Source of the DNA: Acidimicrobiia bacterium
Lineage (GTDB): Bacteria; Actinomycetota; Acidimicrobiia; Acidimicrobiales; Poriferisodalaceae
Length of the DNA stretch: 64,000 nucleotides
Assembly: GCA_022821985.1 (NCBI GenBank)
Contig: JAJECP010000004.1
Coordinates: 1 to 64,000 of the forward strand
Reading direction: 5' to 3'
Every line of letters begins with the position of its first letter. The stretch's first letter is position 1. This document shows, in pieces, positions 15,998-48,488 of the stretch. The position numbers and the translations under genes were made by a program. The notes beneath the pieces are model-generated. The model was not told the origin of the DNA. It did no database searches and was given only the letters and a program-made list of their open reading frames with translations.

Positions 15998-16032
15998 ACA
16001 ACCAGCGCCTGATCGGCCCGGTTGCGTCACCT

Positions 16033-16140
16033 GTTGCCTTCCGCTCATATTGGCTGCGCTCACGGGCCGCTCTGGCCACGGCTTCGCGCCGCATTTGCCG
16101 CTGATGTTCGCTTCGCTCACGGGCCGCTGAGGCCCGGGCT
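16033..16140 (-). repeat. Dispersed intergenic repeat, copy D (two partial units in tandem)
   Basis: Read on the minus strand, 16087-16033 holds GCGAAGCCGTGGCCAGAGC, GGCCCGTGAGCGCAGCCAAT and GAGCGGAAGGCAAC. The span 16140-16091 holds a second, 5'-shortened unit with GCGGCCCGTGAGCGAAGCG. Both match copies A-C. The element lies between the HAD gene and the nitrile hydratase operon and may contribute to the leader of either. Confidence 0.65.
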
Positions 16141-16168
16141 CAGCCTCCAGGTGCAATGCTGGTCGGCC

Positions 16169-16924
16169 ATGCCGCCAGATGCAGACGAATCCGCGCCCGC
16201 GGCGCGAAGCGTGCACGATCTCGGGGGCGCCTCCGGGTATGGACCGGTGCCTCACGACCCTGATGAGCTGCCGTTTCACGCCGACTGGGAACGGCGTGTG
16301 TTCGGTCTGCTGGGCGCGGTGACAGCTTCGACGGCTCGACGACCGGGCGAGTTCCGCTACGTCCTCGAGCGCTTGGACGCATCCGACTACTTCGACAACG
16401 GCTACTACGGACGCTGGCTCGCAGGCTTCGAGGTGCTGCTCGGCGAATACGGGTTGATCGGTCCAGACGAAGTCAGCAGTGCCGTCGCTCGGCGAGCCAA
16501 CGTGACCCCCGAAGAAGCTGCCGGAGCCTCGCCGGTCCAGCGCGCCGCACCCGTCGCTGCCCGCGATCCGGCCGCGATGCCCCCAGACCGGCCCACGCCG
16601 GAACCACGGCATCGAACCGTCAGGCGAGAGTTGGCAGATCCGCCCCGATTCAGCATCGGCGAGCGCGTCGTCGCTCCAGCATCAGTGCAGCCCGGCCATA
16701 CACGACTGCCCGACTACGTGGCAGGTAAACAGGGCACGGTCACCAAGCTGCATCCGGCGGAAGTGCTGCCCGACAGCACTGCCCACGACCTCGGCGAGCG
16801 GCCACAGCACGTCTATTGCGTGGGCTACGACGCCCAGACGCTGTGGGGTAACGAGGCAGACCCGAATGCGACTGTCCACGTCGACCTGTACGAGTGCTAC
16901 CTGACGGCAGCCGAGGGCGGCTGA
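16169..16924 (+). CDS. nthB: Nitrile hydratase subunit beta
   Basis: About 251 residues from ATG at 16169; an in-frame GTG at 16151 is possible. The N-terminal segment VHDLGGASGYGPV and HADWERRVFGLLGA match the beta subunit's helical domain. ASDYFDNGYYGRWLAGFEVLL is the interface with alpha. The C-terminal SH3-like barrel has PRFSIGERVVA, HTRLPDYVAGKQGTV and VYCVGYDAQTLWG. The middle has a Pro/Ala-rich linker of about 40 residues. With the alpha subunit it forms the heterodimer that hydrates nitriles to amides. It is the first gene of a six-gene operon, 33 nt before alpha. The beta-alpha order is typical of cobalt-type enzymes. No separate activator gene is seen. Confidence 0.9.
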   Translation: MPPDADESAPAARSVHDLGGASGYGPVPHDPDELPFHADWERRVFGLLGAVTASTARRPGEFRYVLERLDASDYFDNGYYGRWLAGFEVLLGEYGLIGPDEVSSAVARRANVTPEEAAGASPVQRAAPVAARDPAAMPPDRPTPEPRHRTVRRELADPPRFSIGERVVAPASVQPGHTRLPDYVAGKQGTVTKLHPAEVLPDSTAHDLGERPQHVYCVGYDAQTLWGNEADPNATVHVDLYECYLTAAEGG

Positions 16925-16957
16925 CGCGATGGCAGCAGGCTGACCAGGGAGGAACCG

Positions 16958-17602
16958 ATGCACGACGACCATGCCGGCGGCAGCAGCCACGGCGATCACG
17001 ACCACCGCAACCGTCACCTTGCATCATCGCCGGAAATCCGCGTCGAGGCGCTGGAAGACCTGCTGGTGGAACGCGGTATCGCCGACCGGGGACGGATCGA
17101 CGCCATCATCGAGCGGTTCGAGCACGACATCAGCCCGATGATCGGCGCCAGATTGGTGGCCCAGGCGTGGCTTGATCCTGGCTTGCGACAGCAGCTGCTG
17201 ATCGACGCCGATGCCGTCTTGGCCGGCATGGACATCCGCGGCGCCGAGATCGAGCACATCGAGGTAAAGGCCAACGAGCCCGGCGTCCACAACGTGGTCG
17301 TCTGCACCCTGTGCTCGTGCTACCCGTGGGCGCTGCTCGGGCTGCCGCCGAACTGGTACAAGAGCCCCGAGTACCGGGCTCGCGTGGTGCGCGAGCCTCG
17401 GTCGGTGCTGGCCGAGATGGGCTTGGAGCTCGACCCGAGCACCGAGGTGCGCGTCTGGGACTCCAGCTCCGAGACCCGGTTCCTGGTGCTGCCGGAGCGG
17501 CCCGCGGGCACTGAGGGATGGCCCGTCGAACGCTTGGCCGATCTGGTGACGAGGGATTCGATGATCGGCGTGGACCGCGCTGCCGATCCCGGCAGCGAGT
17601 AA
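16958..17602 (+). CDS. nthA: Nitrile hydratase subunit alpha, cobalt type
   Basis: A 214-residue catalytic subunit. The metal-binding claw is V-C-T-L-C-S-C-Y-P-W, with Cys116, Cys119, Ser120 and Cys121. Thr at the second position and Tyr after the claw indicate the Co(III) form rather than the Fe form (C-S-L-C-S-C-T). LLGLPPNWYKSPEYRARVVRE and the Arg residues that hold the oxidised cysteines are present. The N-terminus has an unusual His/Asp-rich stretch (HDDHAGGSSHGDHDH) that could bind metal. Thiocyanate hydrolase is a related alternative, but the two-subunit arrangement favours nitrile hydratase. The next gene, 52 nt away, is the UGSC selenoprotein. Confidence 0.92.
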   Translation: MHDDHAGGSSHGDHDHRNRHLASSPEIRVEALEDLLVERGIADRGRIDAIIERFEHDISPMIGARLVAQAWLDPGLRQQLLIDADAVLAGMDIRGAEIEHIEVKANEPGVHNVVVCTLCSCYPWALLGLPPNWYKSPEYRARVVREPRSVLAEMGLELDPSTEVRVWDSSSETRFLVLPERPAGTEGWPVERLADLVTRDSMIGVDRAADPGSE

Positions 17603-17654
17603 ACCTGCGAGCGCACAGCACGCGTGGCTGCCGCGCGGGTGTCAGACTGGACCC

Positions 17655-18194
17655 ATGAGCACCCTCACCTTCCACGATCCGCGAGGCGAGGCCAAGACTG
17701 CGCCTGAGCCCTACACGCTCAGCACACCACTCGATCAGCCGATCACGATCGGCCTGGTCGCCAATGGCTTCCCCGACAGTGTCCGCTTCCTCGACCACGT
17801 CGAGAAGGCGCTGGCCGAACGGCTGCCGTCGGCGTCGTTCAACCGCTACGACAAGGGCGACGCTTCGTCGGTCGTCGGCAAAGGGATGCTCAGCGACATC
17901 AGCGCCGAGTGCGGTGCGGTGATCGCTGCGTACGGCCATTGAGGCAGCTGCACATCTGGCACCGTGCGTGACAGCATCACCACCGCCCGAGCGGGCATCC
18001 CGTCCATTGCGCTCGTCACCGACGCGTTCTGGCCCCAGGGCGACTTCGTGGCCAACGCCACCGGCATGCCGACCGTTCCCCGTGTCCGCCTGCCGCACCC
18101 GGTAGCGGGCAGCGGCGAGGACAACATGGCCAAGGTTGCCGCCGACATCGCGCCGCAGATCATCGCGATCCTGACCGGCGCCGCTGCCAACTAG
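17655..18194 (+). CDS. UGSC-family selenoprotein (in-frame TGA = selenocysteine)
   Basis: One continuous 179-residue protein interrupted by a TGA at 17940-17942. The sequence around it reads G-A-V-I-A-A-Y-G-H-U-G-S-C-T-S-G-T-V, so the TGA is Sec96 and the partner is Cys99, exactly the U-G-S-C motif that names the family. Upstream are PITIGLVANGFPDSVRFLDH and FNRYDKGDASS. Downstream are RDSITTARAGIPSIALVTDA and the C-terminal ADIAPQIIAIL, all of which continue in frame to TAG at 18194. The fold resembles the glycine/sarcosine/betaine reductase B-type redox proteins. No frameshift is needed. A hairpin just after the TGA may be a SECIS. It is encoded between nitrile hydratase and a large partner gene 7 nt downstream, so it should act on the same substrate or redox path. 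Reading 17655-17942 as a complete 95-residue protein would be an error. Confidence 0.88.
17947..17975 (+). promoter_or_regulatory. Possible bacterial SECIS hairpin after the UGSC-gene TGA
   Basis: GCTGCAC (17947-17953) can pair with GTG (17968-17970) and CAGC (17972-17975) with one bulged A at 17971, enclosing a 14-nt apical part that contains CTGG. It starts 4 nt after the TGA, where bacterial SECIS elements lie. The structure is only moderately strong and could be chance in GC-rich coding sequence. Confidence 0.35.
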
Positions 18195-18201
18195 ACCAGC
18201 C

Positions 18202-19326
18202 GTGACACTGCTGGAGGCCCGCAGCGAGGCCGACGCGCTCGAGCAGCTTCACGCGCTCGGGCTCACCGACGGCCTGCCGGTCGTGATCCCCACGCCGGAG
18301 CGGGTGGCGATGATGGCGCTCGCCACCGGGCTCGACCCCGATCTCGAACTGGGCGTCATGGGACCCGCGCACGGCGTGGCGAGCGTGGAGAAGGTGGCCA
18401 CCGCTGCGGTGATGGCCGGCTGCCTGCCCGACCACATTCCCGTCGTGGTGGCCGCCGTGCGGGCGGTGTGCCAGCCCGAGTTCGACCTCACCGAGATGCA
18501 GAGCACCACCCACTGCACCGCGCCGCTCATCGTGGTGTGCGGGCCGGCACGGCACCAGTGCGGCGAGGTGGCGTCGGGATTCGGAGCGCTCGGGCCCGGC
18601 CATCGTGCCAACGCTTCGATCGGCCGGGCGCTGCGGCTGGCGATGATGAACATCGGCGGAGCCCGGCCCGGCGTGTCGGACATGGCGCTGCACGGCCATC
18701 CCGGCAAGTTCACCTACTGCCTCGCCGAGGACACCGAGAACAGCCCGTTCGCGCCGCTGCACACCGCCTACGGCTACGCCGAAGATGACAGCGCCGTGGT
18801 GGTGGTCGGTGCCGAGGCGCCGCATTCGACGATCTTCACCGGCGATGCCGACGATCCCGAATCGGCCAGCCGGCTGCTGAACGTGATTGCTGCCGTCATG
18901 GCCAACCCGGGCAGCAACAACGCCCACCTGCGACACGGTGCCGTCACCGTGATCATGAATCCCGATCACACGACGGTGTTGGCTCGCGCCGGGCTGACCC
19001 GCGAGGACATTCAGGCCGAGCTGGCTGCCCGCGCAACCAATACCGCGGCCACGCTCGCCCATGTCGGGTCGGCCTTCTACCTCGACCGGGATGGCCCGCC
19101 TGATGAGCCGGTCCCGATCCTGAAAGACCCCAGCAGGATCGTGGTGTTCCAGGCGGGCGGCTCGGGTCTCTACACGATGGTGATGCCGTCGTGGTGCGCC
19201 GGCCCTCACCAGAACCCAGTCGTCCATGCCGAGATCGATCTGGACCAAGCGTGCGAGGTGCCTTGGGCCGATGCTCTCGGCATCGGCCAACCAGACACAG
19301 CCGATGTTTCAGGAGGAGCTGCCTGA
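18202..19326 (+). CDS. Large conserved partner of the UGSC selenoprotein
   Basis: A 374-residue soluble protein from a GTG 7 nt after the selenoprotein stop. I cannot name a biochemical family. Recognisable conserved-looking segments are [17 protein letters not shown] near the start, [40 protein letters not shown] with three cysteines around residues 108-121, and [19 protein letters not shown]. From memory, proteins with a T-D-G-L-P-V-V-x-P-T opening accompany or are fused to UGSC domains; I cannot check this here. The tight spacing argues for a complex with the selenoprotein. Its cysteines could receive or deliver electrons. The stop overlaps the MaoC start (TGATG). Confidence 0.6.
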
Positions 19327-19820
19327 TGAGCGATGCGCCCCGCCCACACGGCGGACGGTGGTTCGAAGAGCTGACGCCGGGTCTGGTGATCCATCATCGA
19401 CTGCGCCGCACGATCACCGAGGCCGACAACGTCATGTTCACCACCATGACGATGAACCCGGCGGCCCTGCATCTCGACTTTGAGTACGCACGCACCGAGA
19501 CCCAGTTCGGCAAGCCGCTCGTGAACTCGATGTTCACAGCCGCGGTAGTGGTCGGCATCTCGGTCCACGAGACCACCCACGGCACCACCGTGGCCAACCT
19601 CGGCTTCGAGCGGATGGACTTCCCTGCTCCCGTCTTCCACGGCGACACGCTGCGCGTCGAGAGCGAAGTGGTCTCGGCACGCCCGTCCAAGAGCAAGCCC
19701 GACCAGGGCATCATCCTGTTCGAGCACCGCGCCTACAACCAGGACGACACGCTGGTCGCCATCATGCGCCGCAACGCCCTCATGTGGCGCCAGCCGGCGG
19801 AAGCCGAGACCGGCGCCTGA
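19326..19820 (+). CDS. MaoC-family (hotdog-fold) dehydratase
   Basis: A 164-residue MaoC-like protein whose ATG overlaps the previous stop by one base. The R-hydratase motif is visible as [13 protein letters not shown], supplying the Asp/His-type catalytic pair; [11 protein letters not shown] and [18 protein letters not shown] complete the hotdog fold. It resembles mesaconyl-CoA hydratase and related acyl-CoA dehydratases, which add water to an enoyl-CoA. As the fifth gene of the nitrile hydratase/selenoprotein operon, it suggests that the nitrile-derived acid or amide is processed as a CoA ester. Confidence 0.82.
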
Positions 19821-19867
19821 ACACCCTGGAGGGCAGCGGCGTCGTCGCGCGTGCATCCTTGACCGCC

Positions 19868-20887
19868 GTGAGCCCCGGCCCCGCGCCCGATCCCATCGCA
19901 CTGCGGCGCGACGCGCAGCAGCTCGCGGACCAGGTGCTGTTCGAGCGTGCCTTGGACGTGGACGAGGCGGGCGAGGTTCCCGGGCACAATCTGGACCTGT
20001 TCCGTGACGCTGGGCTGTACGGACTGTGGACGCCGACCGACGTGGGTGGCTGCGGATTCGACGAGCTCGAGCGACTGCCGATTCTCGAAGCGCTGGCGGG
20101 CGGCTGCCTCACGACGGCGTTCGTGTGGGCGCAGCACGGGGGCGGCTCGGCGAACGCCGCGCGGATGCCAGCCGGATCGCCGCTGCATGAGCGCTGGGCT
20201 CAGGCGCTCGCCACCGGCGCGCAGCGCAGCGGTGTGGCGTTCGCCCATGTGCTGCGGCCCGAGCCGTGCCTGTTCGCCGAGCGCTCCGGTGGTGGCTGGT
20301 ATCTGCGTGGCGTCGCACCGTTCGTCACCGGGTGGGGTCACATCGACGCAGTGCTGGTTGCCGCTCACGAGGCCGACCGGCTCGTGTGGATGCTCATCCC
20401 GGCCACCGAGGAGCCCACGCTGACATCGCGCCGGCTGCGGCTTGCCGCAGTGGACTCGTCGGTGACCGTGGAGCTGCACTTCGACGGGCACCCCGTCGGC
20501 GACGACGAGGTGGTGGAGGTCATCGACTACAGCAACTGGCTGTCGTTCTACCGCCAAGGCCTGCGAACCAACGGCGCCCTCATGCTGGGCGTGGCATCCC
20601 GCGCACTCAAGCTTTTCGGGCCCTCGCCACTGGATGCCAAGCTGGACGCGGCTCGCAGCGCGCTCTACGCGGCCGAGGTCGACGAGATGCCCGAACGCCG
20701 CGCGCAGGTCGGACATGTGGGCATCCGGGCAACCAGCGCGCTTGTCTCATCGGTCGGCGGCCGAGCGATCACGCTCGCCCATCATGCCCAGCGACTCGCC
20801 CGAGAAGCGCTGTTTCTGCTCGTCCAGGGCCAGACCGCCGAGATCCGGGCAGGCCACCTGCGCCGCCTCGGCGCCACCGACAGCTAG
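19868..20887 (+). CDS. Acyl-CoA dehydrogenase-like flavoprotein
   Basis: About 339 residues from a GTG at 19868; an earlier in-frame start would overlap the MaoC gene. The N-terminal domain (LADQVLFERALDVDEAGEVP, FRDAGLYGLWTPTDVGGCGF) and beta domain (RSGVAFAHVLRPEPCLFAER, GWYLRGVAPFVTGWGHIDAV) follow the family. The C-terminal part is shorter than in standard enzymes and lacks the usual GGGTSEVQR-type closing motif, having AREALFLLVQGQTAEIRAGH instead. It may be a divergent oxidase or monooxygenase of the same fold. It is the last gene of the operon, followed by a 184-nt gap. Confidence 0.72.
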   Translation: MSPGPAPDPIALRRDAQQLADQVLFERALDVDEAGEVPGHNLDLFRDAGLYGLWTPTDVGGCGFDELERLPILEALAGGCLTTAFVWAQHGGGSANAARMPAGSPLHERWAQALATGAQRSGVAFAHVLRPEPCLFAERSGGGWYLRGVAPFVTGWGHIDAVLVAAHEADRLVWMLIPATEEPTLTSRRLRLAAVDSSVTVELHFDGHPVGDDEVVEVIDYSNWLSFYRQGLRTNGALMLGVASRALKLFGPSPLDAKLDAARSALYAAEVDEMPERRAQVGHVGIRATSALVSSVGGRAITLAHHAQRLAREALFLLVQGQTAEIRAGHLRRLGATDS

Positions 20888-21071: not shown

Positions 21072-21617
21072 ATGATCACCCGACCCGACGGCCGCAGCGA
21101 GGCGGCCGAACGACATCCCCCGCCACGCGGGCGACGATGGTCGCTGCTGGCCTGGGCGCTCGCCACGCTGCTGGGCATCGCTGCGGCGTTCACCTTCAGC
21201 ACCGGCGCGGCATCTGCGCAGGCGTCTGGCACGAGCGTCGACATACAGCAGGGCCAGATGCTCGACGATGACCCGCTGCACGACGGCCACGAAGAGGAAC
21301 CCGGCACCGAAGGCCACGACGGGCACGAGCTCCACGGCGACGACAGCGACCATGACGGCGACGACGAGTGCGATCACGAGCATGAGGATGACCCGCTGCA
21401 CGACGGCCACGAAGAGGAGCCCGGCACCGAGGGCCACGACGGGCACGAGCTCCACGGCGACGACAGCGACGATGAGTGCGGTCACGATGACGGCCACGAG
21501 CATGACGATGATCCGCTGCACGACGGCCACGAGGAAGAGCCCGGCACCGAGGGCCACGACGGGCACGAGCTCGACGGCGACGACAGCGACCACGACGACG
21601 GTCACGGCCACCACTAG
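21072..21617 (+). CDS. Secreted His/Asp/Glu-rich repeat protein, likely metal binding
   Basis: A 181-residue exported protein with no recognised family. The N-terminus has R-G-R-R-W followed by a hydrophobic core (LLAWALATLLGIAAAFTF) and a cleavage-like GAASAQA. The mature part is almost entirely His, Asp, Glu and Gly. It has three copies of a 28-residue unit (DDPLHDGHEEEPGTEGHDGH then ELHGDDSD) at an exact 40-residue period, separated by variable His/Asp/Cys-containing linkers (DECDHEHE, DECGHDDGHEHD). This composition suits binding of Zn, Ni, Cu or Ca. It converges on a two-component system whose regulator could control it. The mature protein is very acidic and probably unstructured without metal. 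Confidence 0.75.
   Translation: MITRPDGRSEAAERHPPPRGRRWSLLAWALATLLGIAAAFTFSTGAASAQASGTSVDIQQGQMLDDDPLHDGHEEEPGTEGHDGHELHGDDSDHDGDDECDHEHEDDPLHDGHEEEPGTEGHDGHELHGDDSDDECGHDDGHEHDDDPLHDGHEEEPGTEGHDGHELDGDDSDHDDGHGHH
21267..21590 (+). repeat. Three 84-bp direct repeats at exact 120-bp period
   Basis: Units at 21267-21350, 21387-21470 and 21507-21590 differ at only a few bases (GATGACCCGCTGCACGACGG is the opening of the first two; the third has GATGATCCG). The spacers are 36 bp and diverged. The near-identity at DNA level implies recent duplication or gene conversion, and copy number may vary between strains. Confidence 0.85.
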
Positions 21618-47537: not shown

Positions 47538-48488
47538 TCAGCTGTTCCGGGCGCGGCCGTCGGCTTTCGCGGCCGCCTGATCGCGCCGGCGCTCCTCGCC
47601 GGCTGCGGCGAGAGCAGCACGATTCGAGTCGTCGACGCGCATGAAATGATCACGCCAGCCGTCGTTGTCCCCCGCGTCCCACACGAACGGCGTCTGCACC
47701 GTCGTACGCGGCATCCAAGCGTGCTCGAGCAGGTCCAGGGCCGTGCCCACAATGGCGCTCTGCATGGCCGCATCTCCGGGCTTGCCAGTCGGGTTCCCCA
47801 AGGGGAAGTCGGTGAACACGAAGCGAGCAACGCCGCATTCCTCGACGATGTCGCGGGCGCTGCCGGCCACCACGGTGGGAATGCCGGCTTCTTCCAGATG
47901 TCGAGCGATCAGACCGATCGTCTGGTGGCAGACCGGTCAGAGCGGTACCAGGAAGGCGACGTCCACGCCGTCTTCGCGCATCCACTCCTCGATGCGGGGC
48001 GAATCGTTGCGCTGGGTACGGCGGTGGCTGTAGTCGGTGGGGATCCCGTAGAAGCGTTCAGACAGGGCACCGATGCGTCCCTCGGCCTCGAACTCGCGCA
48101 GCCGGTTGATGGGCAGGTAGGTGTCGAGATCGTCGGTGTGGGTGTTGTCCTTGTCCCAGAAGAGATCGCTGTTGTACAGGCCGTCGAGGGCGTCGTCGCA
48201 GCGGGCGGCGTAGGGCTGCTTGGGTCGGGCCACCGGCACGCCGGCAGGCTCGCGGCCCTTCTCGAAGAACGACGTGGTCACGAGGCCGACGGTGCACTCC
48301 GACAGCGGCTTCGGCAGCGGAGCGAACGCCACGTCGTGGCTGTACGCCCATTGGTACGGCTGCGGGTAGCCGTGCGCTGCGTAGTACTCGCGCGACTTGT
48401 CGATGTAGCTGAGGTACGACCGGTGCGCTCGCCGCCCATCCGGCTTGCGTCCGTTCGTCGTCCGCTGGGGCCGTTCTGTCAACGCCAT
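47538..48488 (-). CDS. GrdB-like selenoprotein (in-frame TGA = selenocysteine, U-P-V-C)
   Basis: A single 316-residue reading frame if the TGA at 47937-47939 is read as Sec184. The local sequence is D-V-A-F-L-V-P-L-U-P-V-C-H-Q-T-I-G-L-I, giving a U-x-x-C redox pair with Cys187. The N-terminal part has YLSYIDKSREYYAAHGYPQP, CTVGLVTTSFFEKGREP and LPINRLREFEAEGRIGALSE. The part after the TGA has ARHLEEAGIPTVVAGSARDI and FTDFPLGNPTGKPGDA. All of this fits the selenoprotein B family of glycine/sarcosine/betaine reductases and its Cys-containing relatives. Annotating it as two genes (47937-48488 and 47538-47873) would be wrong. AGGAG precedes the ATG. A clear hairpin follows the TGA. An alpha/beta hydrolase is next in line. 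Confidence 0.87.
47914..47936 (-). promoter_or_regulatory. Possible SECIS hairpin after the GrdB-like TGA
   Basis: Immediately after the TGA, GTCTG (47933-47929) pairs perfectly with CAGAC (47924-47920) around a CCAC tetraloop. CCG (47936-47934) can pair with CGG (47916-47914) across a GAT bulge. Its position directly after the Sec codon and its compact size suit a bacterial SECIS. Coding constraint overlaps it, so conservation of pairing would need to be tested. Confidence 0.45.

Follow-up and report, generated by a model that had tools for sequence, protein, structure and literature searches.

A UGSC-family selenoprotein gene of an Acidimicrobiia bacterium, its constant partner and a distant profile-level link to GrdB/PrdB

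The stretch of DNA analysed here, which we call the window, comprises 64,000 nucleotides of contig JAJECP010000004.1 from an Acidimicrobiia bacterium (GCA_022821985.1), and our subject within it is a gene of the UGSC family of selenoproteins together with the gene that adjoins it, whose product we refer to as the partner (table 1). The frame of the UGSC gene contains a single TGA at codon 96, which is preceded by 95 codons and followed by 83 sense codons and then TAG, and in the translation (...AAYGH-U-G-S-C-TSGTVRD..., where U is selenocysteine, Sec) this codon occupies exactly the first position of the U-G-S-C tetrad. A first-pass annotation, made from the letters alone, had pointed to the conserved-looking continuation past the TGA and to its placement in the tetrad, and had assigned the gene to the UGSC selenoproteins; all of this is borne out. 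It had also expected a standard caller to report a 95-residue protein and an unrelated 76-residue open reading frame. Both frames exist (17655-17942 and 17964-18194), and the second is anything but unrelated, being the UGSC frame resumed from an internal GTG. Membership of the UGSC family is near certain, the protein matching Pfam PF24696 on both sides of the TGA and across it, from residue 7 to residue 174 (profile positions 3-171 of 172), with 152.4 bits against a cut-off of 25 (E 1.7e-44). Against NCBIfam NF041046 it scores 111.8 bits (E 2.8e-32), below the NCBI equivalog cut-off of 125, a shortfall that we read as limiting the automatic name and leaving the homology unaffected. The family is already known, with its function unexplained, and the window gene adds a member to it; beyond this, the analysis brings out a constant partner, a predicted alpha/beta fold in place of a thioredoxin-like one, and a link to GrdB/PrdB, the selenoproteins (protein B) of the glycine, sarcosine, betaine and D-proline reductases.

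Several lines of evidence indicate that the TGA lies within a functional gene. First, in comparison with three relatives from other genera of the host family (L063, L064, L065) and one from a named Acidimicrobiales record (L070), identity is 77-82% over 66 positions before the TGA and 73-74% over 74 positions after it, and 51-63% of the codons for the same residue differ synonymously. Given that residue identity is kept despite this synonymous change, the stretch past the TGA evolves as coding sequence. A copy from the same genus (L061) is 91% identical before the TGA and 95% identical after it, and homologues align over the full length of the protein rather than with its first 95 residues alone. 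Second, across 98 loci, near copies included, an in-frame TGA stands at the same site in 83 of the 96 UGSC matches, and cysteine replaces Sec in a further 7. An assembly error, which the first-pass annotation had named among the ways in which its reading could fail, is very unlikely on such comparisons because independent relatives share the TGA, as do all five UGSC copies of the host genome.

Bacterial SECIS (selenocysteine insertion sequence) elements have by consensus a G in a loop that lies about 16-37 nt 3' of the UGA. In the window gene a SECIS-like hairpin has its loop 20 nt 3' of the TGA. We compared this region in 28 sequences that have the TGA and resemble the window gene in type, pairwise less than 97% identical over 360 nt, which come from three phyla and by record title or kinship derive from Acidimicrobiia and other Actinomycetota, from Gammaproteobacteria and from one member of the Dehalococcoidia. 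Codons U+6 to U+10 (GGC ACC GTG CGT GAC), a stretch picked after the folds had been viewed, show no synonymous difference in this set; the other 59 codons that could be compared, all outside U+1 to U+11, have a mean of 0.60 with none at or below 0.1, and codons U+1 to U+4 are themselves variable synonymously (0.30-0.71). The stems are 98.2% paired, compared with at most 40.5% when the register is slid by 1-3, and pair 18-34 is U-A in 11 sequences, C-G in 16 and G-G in one. The remaining 47 distinct TGA sequences, from which L139 was kept out since it folds like the first type, have a second form of the hairpin that lies two bases nearer the TGA, with a loop of xGUxx in most. This form is 94.2% paired, with 32 cells changed on both sides in a compensatory manner, compared with at most 86.3% and 19 cells in 500 shuffles and at most 49% and 9 cells in slid registers. 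Such comparative evidence argues strongly for a SECIS element after the TGA.

The first-pass annotation had proposed a search for the Sec machinery. All four components score above their curated cut-offs in the host genome (G000; 3.31 Mb in 41 contigs, 90% complete): selA (383 bits) next to selB (274 bits), selD (355 bits; G000:C10:4396-5349, L018) with an in-frame TGA of its own, and a tRNA-Sec (66.3 bits) to which ARAGORN gives the anticodon TCA. A second place matched by the tRNA-Sec model is barely above its cut-off (48.4 vs 47), and within the 64-kb window Rfam at gathering scores gave no match and ARAGORN no tRNA. Of 14 control genomes, 5 exceed the cut-off for tRNA-Sec, 1 for selA and 2 each for selB and selD, so the tRNA-Sec model taken alone is the least specific. 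Each of the five UGSC copies in the host genome contains one in-frame TGA, and standard gene calling would break up the window gene and its four paralogues alike. Among 61 genomes (the host and 60 relatives), 49 have a UGSC match. SelA is over its cut-off in 46 of the 47 with a TGA-type UGSC (the exception, G037, is 84% complete) and in 2 of 12 that have no UGSC (G045, G050), an association with a Fisher p of 1e-8 when kinship is ignored; the table omits G055, which has selA and a Cys-type UGSC, and G054, which has a UGSC fragment and no selA. Comparison shows a UGA at 17940-17942 that would be decoded as Sec by the host SelA, SelB, SelD and tRNA-Sec with the help of the SECIS hairpin.

The partner matches no family in Pfam or NCBIfam and has no relative among PDB sequences, and where it is annotated in the records that we examined it is called 'hypothetical protein'. 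Its association with UGSC holds from both directions. At all 18 other loci picked by UGSC alone (L049-L066, including the four other host-genome copies) it lies nearby on the same strand, with spacings that range from overlap up to about 1.1 kb (L049, L056), and in L052 and L057, among others, the two proteins are fused in one frame; the host genome has such a fusion copy, a 629-residue frame at G000:C1:32366. Scanning genomes with the partner as sole query yielded at least 444 relatives, and among the best 80, which were kept, UGSC is found at 75 loci and not at L101, L102, L109, L111 and L118, the sequence of L101 being cut at the partner start. The closest partner relatives from named records among these 80 are in Acidimicrobiia metagenome bins (96-97%). 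By record title, the pair occurs in Actinomycetota, Chloroflexi, Proteobacteria, Rokubacteria, Acidobacteriota, Nitrospinota and others, and haloarchaea also carry it, on plasmids. In the cultured Paracoccus versutus DSM 17099 (L188), plasmid pBEN has a UGSC copy with U-G-S-C in frame, directly followed by the partner. Residues D23, G24, G73, G114, R142, E176 and G319 of the partner are invariant in 84 sequences, and C74 and C173 are nearly so. The structure model is confident (pLDDT 93.5); its best Foldseek matches, a class I fumarase (E 3.7e-4, TM 0.23-0.25) followed by cyclic amide hydrolases (starting at E 2.4e-3), were not counted. From the constant adjacency and the fusions we infer that UGSC and the partner form a two-component enzyme and a physical complex.

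The structure model of the UGSC protein, built with Cys in place of Sec (pLDDT 92.2, pTM 0.88), predicts a doubly wound alpha/beta protein in which five strands and five helices alternate (b-a-b-a-b-a-b-a-b-a), and it places residue 96 directly before the helix that follows strand three. A search of PDB sequences found nothing. By structure, Foldseek matched the model to 14 solved structures at E<=0.001, namely flavorubredoxin/flavodiiron proteins, azoreductase, flavodoxin and one EF-Tu-type chain, the best at E 2.6e-4 with TM 0.44-0.49. On the model, UGSC would share a common fold with these flavodoxin-like structures and no close kinship.

Sequence profiles suggest a more specific relationship with GrdB/PrdB, for which we took GrdB and PrdB-like sequences from genomes of the window's phylum (30 loci, of which L147, L154, L155, L156 and L173 were excluded with a domain that was cut, absent or unreadable by script). 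Like UGSC, these proteins place Sec behind a strand, at the point where a helix begins and within a tetrad such as U-G-T-G or U-P-L-C, and continue with a GIP turn and a further strand, as in the GrdB context ...AILTSTUGTGTRCG...ERAGIPT... and the PrdB-like context ...VLLTPSUPLCHRSVG...GIPT.... An hhalign comparison of 95 UGSC sequences with 25 GrdB/PrdB Sec domains placed Sec on Sec with a probability of 90.8 and an E of 1.2e-6 that refers to a database of one, over 70 columns that make up half the domain. The probability is 87.3 with the tetrad masked, 84.0 with only 19 UGSC sequences, and 83.0 and 81.4 against the GrdB and PrdB-like sets alone, compared with at most 6.5 for 30 column shuffles, 0.5 for the reversed profile, at most 2.9 for 20 neighbouring families and 1.4 for GrdE. 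The NCBIfam models for GrdB, GrdF, GrdH and 'various selenoprotein B' also match some UGSC members, the best at E 1.2e-6, and at E 10 they match 9, 9, 4 and 5 of 19 members. At the profile level, the UGSC family appears to be a distant homolog of the Sec domain of GrdB/PrdB.

The genomic setting of the pair is summarized in table 1. On the forward strand the order is nitrile hydratase beta subunit, alpha subunit, UGSC, partner, MaoC-type hydratase and acyl-CoA dehydrogenase-like protein, and because neighbouring genes overlap or are separated by at most 52 nt, these six genes (16022-20887) are probably one operon. The probable ATG of the MaoC gene overlaps the stop codon of the partner gene, and the nitrile hydratase alpha subunit contains a CTLCSC motif, which we take to be characteristic of such subunits. 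Judged by title and abstract, none of the papers found that name both a selenoprotein and nitrile hydratase concerns such a pairing. In a neighbour map of 95 loci, which omits the near copies L062, L067, L068 and L079, nitrile hydratase is near UGSC in 8, all of them in the window's subfamily, and it is divergent in some genera. At other loci the neighbours of UGSC include CoA-transferases, short-chain dehydrogenases, acyl-CoA dehydrogenases, TctC receptors and thiamine enzymes, where the name CoA-transferase and some of the others are presumed from the starts of the sequences. In Arthrobacter sp. ERGS1:01 (L186), whose UGSC is a natural Cys homologue, the order is trxB-trxA-partner-UGSC. In Neorhizobium galegae (CP090555.1, L187) the partner is followed by a trxB-like stretch that is broken into two pieces, with malonyl-CoA decarboxylase and synthase genes before the pair. 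The UGSC relative of this last locus has C-S-T-C in place of U-G-S-C, and the locus is a possible substrate lead. Three unrelated hosts carry a phosphosulfolactate synthase-like gene in the vicinity of UGSC (L144, where the call is a 26% tblastn match only, L185 and L186), which may hint at sulfonated carboxylates.

Table 1. Features of the UGSC locus in the window
Feature	Position	Strand	Remarks
UGSC-family selenoprotein gene	17655..18194	+	179 residues; TGA 17940-17942 = Sec96; stop TAG
U-G-S-C tetrad codons	17940..17951	+	TGA GGC AGC TGC
SECIS-like hairpin	17956..17974	+	CUG/CAG stem, G-A mismatch, CAC/GUG stem; loop CGUGC 17963-17967
Partner protein	18202..19326	+	374 aa; no Pfam or NCBIfam family; adjoins UGSC gene
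Nitrile hydratase beta subunit	16022..16924	+	Start uncertain, profile match from residue 63 onwards; probably same operon
Nitrile hydratase alpha subunit	16958..17602	+	Profile match; CTLCSC motif; probably same operon
MaoC-type hydratase	19326..19820	+	PF01575 (scanned as 19296-19817); start inferred from overlap
Acyl-CoA dehydrogenase-like protein	19784..20887	+	Overlaps MaoC gene

Elsewhere in the window, a frame on the reverse strand at 47538-48488 is a second selenoprotein candidate of PrdB/GRDB-like type, with a TGA at 47939-47937 in the context ...AFLVPL-U-PVC-HQTIGL... and a TGA stop at 47540-47538. It matches PF07355 weakly (19.7 bits, below the cut-off), and the homologues fetched from the phylum have U at the TGA site, with C in one (L176). 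The host genome has further GRDB-type C-terminal matches at G000:C37:39259-39630 (L170, U-P-V-C) and G000:C23:49474-49974, and its selenoproteome may be large. The frame at 21072-21617 on the forward strand has His/Asp/Glu-rich repeats after a signal-like start and perhaps encodes a metal-binding protein.

The reading that we favor, with some reserve, is that UGSC is probably the selenol subunit of a two-component reductase, a distant relative of GrdB/PrdB that would cleave a carbon-heteroatom bond by way of a selenoether. UGSC would be the catalytic half and the partner the other component. By analogy, the selenolate of the Sec residue, located where the helix that follows strand three begins, would attack a carbon in a small substrate of carboxylate type. 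The partner would hold this substrate, perhaps binding it in GrdE's stead. Displacement of the heteroatom group would leave a selenoether, whose Se-C bond the second Cys of U-G-S-C would break to give a selenenyl sulfide, to be re-reduced by a thioredoxin-type donor. For glycine reductase, passages of one account describe Sec chemistry of this kind, with a selenoether and release via a second Cys (PMC10298544). In the host, the operon points to the breakdown of a nitrile- or acyl-CoA-linked compound. A wider proposal, which we hold tentatively and with somewhat less than even confidence, is that UGSC and the partner constitute a widespread third branch of GrdB/PrdB, a two-component, thioredoxin-fed and Sec-dependent carbon-heteroatom reductase outside the anaerobic clostridial world, the five host copies perhaps having different substrates. 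With the partner, the predicted fold and the tie to GrdB, an orphan and abundant selenoprotein becomes a testable two-protein enzyme, and if the proposal is true, Sec-dependent reductive cleavage extends beyond anaerobic amino-acid fermenters.

A number of observations weigh against this interpretation. The window protein itself has no match to a GrdB model (NCBIfam to E 10; Pfam, including PF07355, to 0.001), and at E 0.001 few of 75 UGSC members do (TIGR01917 6, GrdF 3, GrdH 2, TIGR01918 3). Besides the half-domain span and the one-entry database behind the hhalign E, the GrdB/PrdB profile has a background of 44 with GrdE and 22.5 with short-chain dehydrogenases, so moderate probabilities can arise between alpha/beta proteins, and a sequence search of the PDB found no GrdB/PrdB structure on which kinship of fold could be checked. 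GrdE (PF09338) was not found in the 90% complete host genome and the partner as GrdE was rejected (hhalign probability 0.24, no recognisable relative); the pyruvoyl part of the known enzymes is accordingly missing. Since queries with the Arthrobacter genes found a trxB-like gene at 2 of 98 loci (L075, on the opposite strand, and L121, partial) and trxA at none with its single query, thioredoxin is only suggested as the reductant of the system. As for the Sec site, 6 of 96 UGSC copies were not recognised by the motif script and their codon went unrecorded; two of these have C-G-G-C, three differ in the second Cys or in a neighbouring residue, and L131 has neither Sec nor Cys at the motif. Finally, the folding energy of the window hairpin alone is not unusual (z 0.54). 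Over 82 sequences the mean z against plain shuffles is about -1, and single-sequence folding energy, not being significant, was dropped as evidence for SECIS.

Of the other explanations, the one that survives best, and which we nonetheless regard as rather unlikely, is that UGSC is a flavodoxin-like selenoprotein of another activity, in which the pair transfers or binds a group (e.g. metal, sulfur or acyl) and the likeness to GrdB is confined to the active-site loop. The diversity of neighbourhoods, from CoA-transferases and short-chain dehydrogenases to TctC receptors and thiamine enzymes, is consistent with this explanation, as are the phosphosulfolactate synthase-like genes at three loci, the failure to find GrdE in the host and a partner that resembles nothing known; the alignment of Sec on Sec, the significant profile scores and the low controls argue instead for kinship with GrdB. 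Less likely again, and in our view quite improbable, is the view of the selenoproteome papers that UGSC is a thioredoxin-fold thiol/selenol oxidoreductase with a general redox role. The U-x-x-C motif is typical of thioredoxin-fold oxidoreductases. The confident model, however, has five alternating strands and helices and lacks the thioredoxin strand order, no thioredoxin-fold protein is among the best 50 of 1662 Foldseek matches, and the profiles favor GrdB; on the model, a thioredoxin fold is unsupported. A large constant partner would also be unusual for a thioredoxin. In favor of this view, a sentence of PMC13188914 names UGSC alongside thioredoxin-fold proteins. A variant code in which UGA is read as Trp or Cys is very improbable: the Cys homologues at the site (7 of 96) would fit it, but 75 partner frames are all free of internal TGA codons, 12 of the partner matches run into a TGA at their end, and the tRNA-Sec, the adjacent selA and selB and the hairpin after the TGA are all present. 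That the TGA is a true stop in a pseudogene or a product of sequencing error, with the 95-residue piece alone being made, would explain the in-frame TGA and a gene split by standard callers, and it has a negligible chance against a TGA shared by the five host copies and 83 of 96 matches, coding and SECIS constraint beyond it, and complete Sec machinery.

Among known systems, the window protein stands closest to the UGSC family as already described (PF24696/NF041046, the 'UGSC-containing protein' of marine selenoproteome papers), with which it shares the full-length domain, U-G-S-C and the in-frame TGA, as well as Sec machinery in the genome and a second conserved protein, adjacent or fused; its score under the NF041046 equivalog cut-off would perhaps make it a side branch. 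Passages of an earlier report (PMC2398784) describe a UGSC/Unknown_1 fusion, in which a conserved domain is fused to UGSC as in the 629-residue host frame and others, and Unknown_1 is likely a partner of the type found here. Passages of the literature that name both UGSC and selenoprotein, in a coverage that excludes most subscription titles, gave no link to glycine reductase. In comparison with GrdB, GrdF, GrdH and PrdB, UGSC is a single 180-residue domain that lacks the N-terminal half of GrdB, and its partner is not GrdE-like, in a host in which GrdE was not found. Lineages regarded as aerobic commonly carry UGSC, whereas Grd/Prd enzymes are known from anaerobes. A trait that UGSC does share with GrdB/PrdB is the thioredoxin pair, which adjoins it in one relative.
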